Shown piece by piece: positions 20,631 through 22,425 of a DNA stretch of 35,153 bases (position 1 is the stretch's first letter; each line of letters starts with the position of its first letter). The notes beneath the pieces were generated by a model. That model did not search any database. It was not told the DNA's origin and was given only the letters and a program-made list of their open reading frames with translations. The position numbers and the translations under genes were made by a program. Source of the DNA: Sulfurovum sp. (GTDB lineage: Bacteria; Campylobacterota; Campylobacteria; Campylobacterales; Sulfurovaceae); the NCBI GenBank assembly GCA_011391015.1, contig JAABRH010000011.1, positions 1-35,153 on the forward strand. Reading direction: 5' to 3'.

Positions 20631-20661
20631 TGCAAAGAAAAGTTTTTACTTTTTCTTTGCA
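20631..20661. terminator. AT-rich stem-loop between convergent cls and DEAD-box helicase genes
   Basis: TGCAAAGAAAA (20631-20641) pairs with TTTTCTTTGCA (20651-20661) around a 9-base loop. The stop codon of the minus-strand helicase lies inside the loop. On the plus strand the T-rich stretch GTTTCCTGTTTTTTC follows, so it might end cls transcripts. The symmetry may also be a by-product of Lys-rich coding sequence. Confidence 0.33.
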
Positions 20662-21917
20662 GTTTCCTGTTTTTTCTTTTTTTGTGCGGCGTAAGTGTAT
20701 TTGCGTATCTTATCGTAGTCTATCTTGCCTTTTTTCTCACTCAGCTTCTTTTTGATCTGGCGTTTTTGTCTAGGCTGTTTGTCGGTGAGTTCAAACCCTT
20801 CATAGATGTCTCTCTTGATGTTCAGCTTCAGATGTTTTTCCATCGTCGTAAAAAAATCATAGTCATGTATAGTCAAAAGCGAGATACTCTCTCCTTTATG
20901 ATTGGCTCTACCTGTTCTGCCCACTCTGTGCGTAAAGTCATCCGTACCTTCAGGCATATCGTAGTTGATGACCATGGCAAGTTCTTTGATGTCGATGCCA
21001 CGCGCTGCGATGTCCGTTGCGACCAAAACCTGCGTTTTACCGCTTTTAAGCAGTGCGAGCGATTTGGCTCTCGCCCCTCTATTTATGTCGCCGTGTATGA
21101 TAGAAGTGCGGATATGTTGGGATTTGAGATACTCGTAGATGATATTGGCGGATTCTTTGGTAGTGGCAAACAAAAGCACCTGTTCAAGTCCCATATCGGT
21201 GATGAGTTTTGCGGTGAGTTCGGCTTTTCTTTTTTTGTCCACTTTGTAGGCACGGTGTGCGATGAACTCCACCACATCACGTCTATGGCTTACTTCTACT
21301 ACCGCTACATCATGCATGAACTCTTTTGCCAGTTTTTTGATGTTTTGCGAAACCGTGGCAGAGAACATCATCATCTGTTTGGGTTTTTTGCACTGTGAGA
21401 GTATGGCTTTTATCTCAGCTAAAAACCCAAGTTCCAGCATCGTATCTGCCTCATCGAGTATGATGGTGTTGATGTACTCCAGGTTTATTTTTTTCTCATC
21501 GATGAAGTTTTGCAAGCGTCCGGGTGTCGCCACGATGATATCTGCACCCTCAGAGAGCCTTGCAAGCTGTGTGGCTTTGGGGATGCCGCCTTGTATCTTG
21601 ACATTCTTAATAGGCAGATACTTGCTCAGATCCGAGATGGTGCGGGAGACCTGATCCACCAACTCGATGGTAGGCACGATGATGAGCGCGCGCGCAACTT
21701 TCTCCTCTTTTTTGACGATCTTTTGCAGTTTGTTGAGCAAAGGAAGCACATAGGCAACCGTTTTGCCTGTACCTGACTTCGATGCACCCAGTACATCCAG
21801 ACCTTTCATGGCAACAGGTATGACCTTGGCTTGTATGGCAGTCGTCTCTTCATACTTCAACCCTGCGATTGCTTTGAGAATGTCGGGATGTAGATTTAAT
21901 TTTTCAAATGCTTTGAT
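20646..21917 (-). CDS. DEAD-box ATP-dependent RNA helicase (RhlE/CshA-like), apparent ATC start
   Basis: This RNA helicase unwinds RNA duplexes in ribosome assembly or decay. Counting from 21917 it has 423 residues: Q motif from F4 (KAFEKLNLHPDILKAIAGL) to Q29, motif I SGTGKT at 48-53, DEAD at 154-157, SAT in domain 2 entry, and HRVGRTGRANHKGES near the C-terminal core. The tail is Lys-rich (QKRQIKKKLSEKKGK), suiting RNA contact. The first canonical start is TTG 21860, which would delete half of the Q motif. Upstream, the reading frame is open to a TAA at 21929-21927, with AAGGA (21928-21924) exactly 6 bases from an ATC at 21917. I therefore extend the gene to this ATC: either a rare start or an ATG altered by a base change. 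Confidence 0.88.
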   Translation of the reverse strand: MKAFEKLNLHPDILKAIAGLKYEETTAIQAKVIPVAMKGLDVLGASKSGTGKTVAYVLPLLNKLQKIVKKEEKVARALIIVPTIELVDQVSRTISDLSKYLPIKNVKIQGGIPKATQLARLSEGADIIVATPGRLQNFIDEKKINLEYINTIILDEADTMLELGFLAEIKAILSQCKKPKQMMMFSATVSQNIKKLAKEFMHDVAVVEVSHRRDVVEFIAHRAYKVDKKRKAELTAKLITDMGLEQVLLFATTKESANIIYEYLKSQHIRTSIIHGDINRGARAKSLALLKSGKTQVLVATDIAARGIDIKELAMVINYDMPEGTDDFTHRVGRTGRANHKGESISLLTIHDYDFFTTMEKHLKLNIKRDIYEGFELTDKQPRQKRQIKKKLSEKKGKIDYDKIRKYTYAAQKKKKQETAKKK

Positions 21918-21946
21918 GGGATGTCCTTATTTTTCTAATGTGTACT

Positions 21947-22198
21947 TCAATACACTTCTTTTTTATGCGCTATTCTGATTAAGGTGATCACTAAAATATC
22001 ATTTTCTTTGAAATAAACGATCCTGTAATCACCCGCTCTTTTTCGAAACTTCCCCTTGTGTTTACCTTTAAGAGATTTGTCTGTTTCAAATAAGCCTTTT
22101 TCTAAGTCTAGTATTTTTGAATAAACTAGCTTTTGGTTTTGGTAATCTATCTTTTCCAATTCTTTAAACGCAGATTTTGGAATAATGATTTTGTACAT
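21947..22198 (-). CDS. RelE/ParE-family toxin
   Basis: This 83-residue basic protein starts MYKIIIPKSAFKELEKID and contains GKFRKRAGDYRIVYF and ITLIRIAHKKEVY, the central RxxxGDYRVxY and C-terminal HRxxxY-like patterns of RelE/ParE toxins. Members either cut mRNA on the ribosome (RelE) or poison gyrase (ParE); sequence alone does not decide here. Its ATG overlaps the antitoxin stop by one base (TAATG), so the two are translationally coupled. The helicase ribosome site begins only 19 bases after its TGA, hinting at read-through into that gene. Confidence 0.88.
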   Translation of the reverse strand: MYKIIIPKSAFKELEKIDYQNQKLVYSKILDLEKGLFETDKSLKGKHKGKFRKRAGDYRIVYFKENDILVITLIRIAHKKEVY

Positions 22199-22425
22199 TA
22201 ACTAAGGCCTAGTCTTTGGGCTACTTCTTGAAGGGAATACACTTCAGTTTTTCCAGTTTTGAGTTCATCGATGCGTTTATCTGCAATCATCTCATCCAAA
22301 GTATCAAAATAGGTACTTACCGCTTTTTCAATTATATACGTTCTTGAACGCTCCAACTCATGAGCATAAGAGTCCAAATCCGTTAATAAATCCTCATCAA
22401 TACGGATATTAATTGCTTTTTTCAT
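22198..22425 (-). CDS. Ribbon-helix-helix antitoxin
   Basis: This 75-residue partner of the RelE/ParE toxin has the N-terminal ribbon-helix-helix pattern KKAINIRIDEDLLTDLDSYA (residues 2-21), then ERSRTYIIEKAVSTYF, which together form the DNA-binding dimer. The acidic C-terminal part (DEMIADKRIDELKTG) should wrap the toxin. Such antitoxins repress their own operon, and repeated half-sites are visible in the promoter. AAAGGA precedes the ATG by about 7 bases. Confidence 0.88.
   Translation of the reverse strand: MKKAINIRIDEDLLTDLDSYAHELERSRTYIIEKAVSTYFDTLDEMIADKRIDELKTGKTEVYSLQEVAQRLGLS

Follow-up and report, generated by a model that had tools for sequence, protein, structure and literature searches.

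A DEAD-box RNA helicase gene with a conserved AUH start codon in three families of one bacterial order

In the window, a stretch of 35,153 nucleotides from Sulfurovum sp. (contig JAABRH010000011.1), the gene for a DEAD-box RNA helicase begins with ATC, and comparison with its orthologues indicates that this start is real and conserved, rather than an error or a lone mutation. All 143 orthologues in which the start can be read, drawn from three families of water-dwelling bacteria in the order, carry an AUH codon (AUA, AUC or AUU in the mRNA) at this position (88 ATC, 28 ATA and 27 ATT), and in none of the 143 is the start ATG, GTG or TTG (hereafter NTG). We propose that the helicase is translated from the ATC at 21917, that selection holds the start codon within the AUH class, and that synthesis of the protein is low and sensitive to the inspection of the start codon on the 30S subunit. 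To this joint reading we assign a probability of roughly 0.78.

The start site and the protein it specifies

On the minus strand, the sequence around the start reads ...AAA TAA GGA CAT CCC ATC AAA GCA TTT GAA AAA TTA..., and the stop-to-stop frame from 21926 to 20646 translates as GHPIKAFEKLNLHPDILKAIAGLKYEETTAIQ... (Table 1). The first-pass annotation of this DNA had described the layout as a TAA, an AAGGA, a gap of six bases and the ATC at 21917-21915, with no NTG codon before the TTG at 21860, and its coordinates proved exact; in the frame of the window, no ATG, GTG or TTG lies between the TAA at 21929-21927 and that TTG. It had also described the TTG as the sole canonical start, which needs amending, as this codon is only the first of those downstream and the ATG at 21809 comes next.

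Table 1. Features at the helicase locus, in coordinates of the window
Feature	Position	Strand	Remarks
DEAD-box RNA helicase gene	20646..21917	-	ATC start to TAA stop (20648-20646); 423 codons plus stop; Pfam DEAD and Helicase_C
ATC start codon	21915..21917	-	ATH at the start in 143/143 orthologues with a readable start
Shine-Dalgarno sequence AAGGA	21924..21928	-	ends 6 bases 5' of the ATC
Spacer CATCCC	21918..21923	-	between AAGGA and ATC
In-frame TAA	21927..21929	-	excludes any start farther upstream
TTG, codon 20	21858..21860	-	first canonical in-frame codon; read as internal Leu
ATG, codon 37	21807..21809	-	likely mis-annotation site; a start here would lose the Q-motif region
Q-motif region, F4 to Q29	21831..21908	-	F4, T26 and Q29 invariant in 30/30 aligned orthologues
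ParE-type toxin gene	21947..22198	-	directly upstream of the helicase gene; Pfam ParE_toxin 4.1e-07
Ribbon-helix-helix antitoxin gene	22198..22425	-	neighbour; Pfam RHH_1 1.4e-05

Judged by its domains and motifs, the protein encoded from the ATC is a DEAD-box RNA helicase closest to the RhlE and CshA types. It matches the Pfam domains DEAD (2.5e-43) and Helicase_C (1.7e-28) and contains a Q-motif region together with the SGTGK and DEAD motifs, and the residues F4, Q29, S48, G49, G51, K52, D155, E156 and D158 are invariant in all 30 aligned orthologues. The best NCBIfam model is that for RhlE (NF007882), at 358 bits against a curated cut-off of 743, and the CshA model (NF053631) gives 335 bits against a cut-off of 646. 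The protein thus belongs to the same family as the RhlE and CshA-type helicases but scores below the equivalog cut-offs for both, and it also differs from these relatives in that 48 of the 51 paralogues examined have NTG starts. The match to the solved helicase CshA (5ivl; E 1.4e-68) runs from residue 3 (counted from the ATC), which aligns with residue 3 of the CshA chain, so that the ATC sits at the position of the first residue of CshA, where the first-pass annotation had expected the protein to begin.

In the window, the TAA at 21929 leaves no room for an upstream start, and in 128 of the 143 orthologues the interval between stop and AUH contains no in-frame NTG codon that could act as one. 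An in-frame stop lies within 44 codons upstream of the AUH in every one of the 143, and just two codons upstream in 11 of them; the remaining 15 do have an in-frame NTG in this interval, 5 to 20 codons upstream and at or before the AGG of the Shine-Dalgarno sequence. No NTG occurs in codons 1-4 of any of the 143 orthologues.

Could translation instead begin at a downstream NTG, either the TTG at 21860 or the ATG at 21809, with the AUH region being non-coding? Standard gene finders permit ATG, GTG and TTG alone, and the ORF listing opens this reading frame at 21860. We give the idea very little credence, and rejected a downstream start, because F4 of the Q-motif region does not vary among the 30 aligned orthologues, the N terminus aligns with CshA from residue 3, and the first downstream NTG shifts between orthologues (median codon 37), with no common Shine-Dalgarno sequence needed there. 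The codon matching the TTG at 21860 is itself something other than TTG in most of the Sulfurovaceae orthologues compared.

Conservation of the start codon and its leader

To define the range of the AUH start, we collected orthologues from the window's family (f1) and from two further families (f8 and f14). In f1, 61 of 175 genomes have an orthologue that passes an E-value limit of 1e-120, and the start was AUH in all 60 that were readable (51 ATC, 7 ATT and 2 ATA); the other one (G210) was left out because the contig end cuts the gene and the start is missing. In f8, a search of 104 genomes gave 81 orthologues, from as many genomes, and these likewise all start with AUH (36 ATC, 26 ATA and 19 ATT), and in f14, where 2 of 14 genomes have the gene, the starts are ATC and ATT. 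Family f8 is probably the Arcobacteraceae, as the closest sequence to an Arcobacter sp. locus (L087) comes from an f8 member, with 79% over 103 residues. In three rows of this family (L203, L231 and L238) the start was placed 1-3 codons upstream of the aligned codon on the basis of Shine-Dalgarno spacing, and without these rows the count is 140 of 140. Loci from named records were left out of the count, since 44 of the 45 duplicate a counted locus over the first 300 bases; the 45th, L087, also stands outside the 143 and starts with ATC. Loci L248 and L249 duplicate L243 and L244, and L206, a filler stretch, was unused. An order-wide survey found an orthologue-level score (at least 544 bits, the next score down being 488 bits) in 48 of 398 genomes, and a phylum-wide survey that overlaps it found 39 of 397 genomes at E 1e-150 or better, all of them f1 or f8. 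The 143 orthologues share ancestry and are not 143 independent events, and hence no p-value is given.

The first-pass annotation had offered two explanations of the ATC, a true rare start, which would limit expression, or a C-for-G change or sequencing error, and had proposed a comparison of orthologues at this codon as a check. That comparison decides for the former as regards the start itself. The window genome (G000) is in draft form (111 contigs, completeness about 85%), which could favour an error of sequencing or assembly, or a recent point mutation, confined to this genome. ATC is, however, also the codon of the nearest relative (97% protein identity; L009/L038), and every one of the 143 readable orthologues keeps both an AUH codon, and never ATG, and a properly spaced Shine-Dalgarno sequence. 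The carriers include genomes that are complete in one contig (G072, G079 and G097, for example), and we consider an error to be already refuted by the orthologues.

The pattern of change at the start codon points to selection. A FastTree tree of 163 rows splits the 143 orthologues from 20 paralogues with a support of 100, and on this tree the third base of the start changes at least 23 times, with none of the changes being to G. ATC is also more frequent at the start than among the internal isoleucine codons of the same genes (51/60 vs 29% in f1 and 36/81 vs 10.5% in f8). From these comparisons we conclude that the AUH class is kept by selection across the orthologous clade, while the third base drifts among A, C and T and G is excluded. 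Among 51 paralogues, taken from the window's order plus a few other bacteria, 44 start with ATG and four with TTG, and three have no NTG at the corresponding place (apparently ATT). Six loci (L205, L226, L242, L245, L246 and L247), all of which start with ATG, were classed as paralogues because they are less similar and because of where they fall in the tree. A different RhlE-like paralogue in three species of family f16 (L158-L160) has ATT 7 bases after AGGA; the 27 other loci of the same search have ATG or TTG, and the three look like a second, separate instance of an AUH start.

In the leader of the gene, an AGG precedes the start in all 143 orthologues; its last G is 6-8 bases away from the start, and in 138 of them the base after it is A. 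In 44 of 60 f1 genes and in 51 f8 genes, the 60 bases upstream include a perfect TATAAT, compared with 3/60 (f1) and 3/80 (f8) for a control stretch 80 bases farther upstream, and its closeness means that the leader is usually short. By eye, no obvious TATAAT was seen in the leader of the window copy or of its nearest relative. Between the Shine-Dalgarno sequence and the start the RNA has little predicted structure (mean energy over 70 bases of about -3 to -4 kcal/mol), and per-base conservation in f1 is about 2 bits for AAGG and again from the start codon on, falling mostly below 0.6 farther upstream.

Codons 2-6 of the f1 genes (AAA GCA TTT GAA AAA; L008-L117) have a mean synonymous constraint of 0.45 vs 0.13 gene-wide, a level reached in only 1 of 248 windows. 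This constraint could mean that the conserved stretch acts as an RNA element, for instance as a binding site for the helicase itself or a small RNA, and that the start codon is held in place because it belongs to that element. We think this improbable. Codons 2-6 of the f8 genes, which offer a single scorable column, give no constraint signal, yet AUH is kept in that family with a drifting third base, and the leader beyond AAGGA is both poorly conserved and weakly folded. In 19 of the f8 genes (L148-L156 and 10 other f8 loci) the first downstream NTG is the ATG of codon 7, a possible second start that would yield a slightly shorter protein lacking F4.

The toxin-antitoxin pair of the window (21947-22425) sits between the helicase gene and a gene for a pseudouridine synthase. 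At two other loci (L010 and L014) a similar synthase was seen by eye upstream of the helicase, with no toxin-antitoxin pair listed between them. The pair may have been inserted in the window, displacing the usual promoter. Across 11 orthologue loci inspected by eye, no neighbour is common to all, and a synthase-like protein upstream is confined to the window, L010 and L014, being absent in the others. A link between the helicase and work on ribosomal RNA, by way of the upstream synthase gene, is only hinted at.

Known non-canonical starts and initiation in this order

Non-canonical starts are extremely rare in bacteria and very few have been characterised (PMC5472188). The gene infC, which starts with AUU in E. 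coli, ATC in Streptomyces and AUA in S. aureus (PMC5472188, PMC13009471), controls itself where its start is AUU or AUC (PMC5472188). The sigR gene of Streptomyces starts with GTC and is repressed by IF3, and a canonical start would spoil its regulation (PMC5472188). AUH starts in S. aureus give ~10% of the reporter output of AUG; of the genes concerned, ccpN (AUA) responds to the medium and cvfC1 (AUU) showed no medium dependence. In Staphylococcus both genes have a conserved AUH start and a strong Shine-Dalgarno sequence, and their synthesis is reduced (PMC13009471).

These are the closest known counterparts of the helicase start. With infC the helicase gene shares an AUH start, a good Shine-Dalgarno sequence, conservation among relatives and a translation-related product, and in the manner of infC-type genes its non-NTG start and its AGG at 6-8 bases are both kept in 143 of 143 orthologues. 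It differs from infC in that the AUH here stands on a DEAD-box helicase gene, in an order whose own infC starts canonically. A conserved AUH start with a Shine-Dalgarno sequence is shared with ccpN and cvfC1 as well, although these are different genes in a different phylum. The start of sigR is likewise non-canonical but is GTC rather than AUH and belongs to a sigma factor, for which regulation has been shown by experiment. Control by an AUH start is thus already known (infC and ccpN, and sigR with GTC), and the helicase gene and its clade are the new case. A literature search, largely without subscription journals and for that reason weak evidence, turned up no case of an AUH start on a bacterial RNA helicase.

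As for infC in this order, TTG is the first in-frame canonical codon in all 32 genomes read (loci L280-L313), one of which belongs to f8; 3 of 30 loci were unreadable with the search pattern, and 5 further loci were added to reach the 32. The textbook infC loop is therefore absent in the genomes read and, from these sequences, seems to be absent from the order in its known form. The infC TTG of the window genome (L207:1456-1458) overlaps the stop codon of thrS (TTGA).

It might also be supposed that an unusual initiator tRNA reads AUH in these bacteria, a notion for which we found no support and to which we give next to no weight. Typing covered 38 of the 43 tRNA matches in G072, a complete genome that has the gene; these 38 include four with anticodon CAT and one for Ile (GAT), with no sign of an unusual initiator among them. 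Moreover, a single anticodon would hardly read AUA, AUC and AUU yet not AUG, and paralogues of the same order use ATG.

A weak start as a proposed brake or sensor

In the mechanism that we favour, the ordinary initiator tRNA, and so fMet, would start the RhlE-like helicase at the ATC at 21917, guided by the AAGGA. Codons of the AUH class match the CAU anticodon poorly and are disfavoured by IF3, such that a promoter and a Shine-Dalgarno sequence that are both good would be paired with a deliberately poor start. Synthesis of the helicase would then be low and would rise whenever the stringency of start-codon selection (IF3, 30S quality) drops. Whereas the position and conservation of the start, the absence of NTG, the Shine-Dalgarno sequence and the TATAAT usually found close by come directly from the comparison of orthologues, we infer the use of fMet, the low yield and the sensitivity to IF3; that the AUH start limits synthesis of the helicase is likewise argued by analogy with other genes (PMC13009471, PMC5472188).

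The conservation evidence would also fit a fixed brake, which would hold a helicase that is harmful in excess at a constant low level and involve no sensing of IF3 or of the ribosome. The low reporter output of other AUH starts agrees with this, as does S. aureus cvfC1 with its lack of medium dependence (PMC13009471), and we regard a fixed brake as a serious contender at somewhat less than even odds. Expression would also be cut, however, by GTG or TTG or by a weaker Shine-Dalgarno sequence, and yet GTG and TTG are found in 0 of 143 orthologues and AGG in 143 of 143, which suggests that the AUH class itself matters. The retention of AUH while GTG and TTG are excluded suggests that selection acts on sensitivity to start-codon inspection and not on low yield alone, as in the mechanism that we favour. 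More generally, so conserved a weak start suggests a deliberate brake or sensor and not an error.

Immature 30S subunits may relax start selection, although the literature searched did not document this. On a tentative and, in our view, rather unlikely extension of the favoured mechanism, the helicase would serve as a sensor: a shortage of IF3 or an immature 30S subunit would lead to more initiation at AUH, and the additional helicase would repair or mature ribosomal RNA until stringency was back. If this were so, the Sulfurovaceae and a second family, probably the Arcobacteraceae, would carry an AUH regulatory start on an RNA helicase, with infC having UUG.

One practical consequence is that gene finders limited to ATG, GTG and TTG will remove the Q-motif region from this helicase. 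Documented cases of bacterial genes that conserve a non-canonical start are few (PMC5472188). Here, an AUH start is kept in 143 of 143 genes across three families, on a protein family for which the literature searched holds no such report, and infC is canonical in those genomes of the order that were read. The gene is a natural and clean case for testing why AUG would be ruled out by selection.
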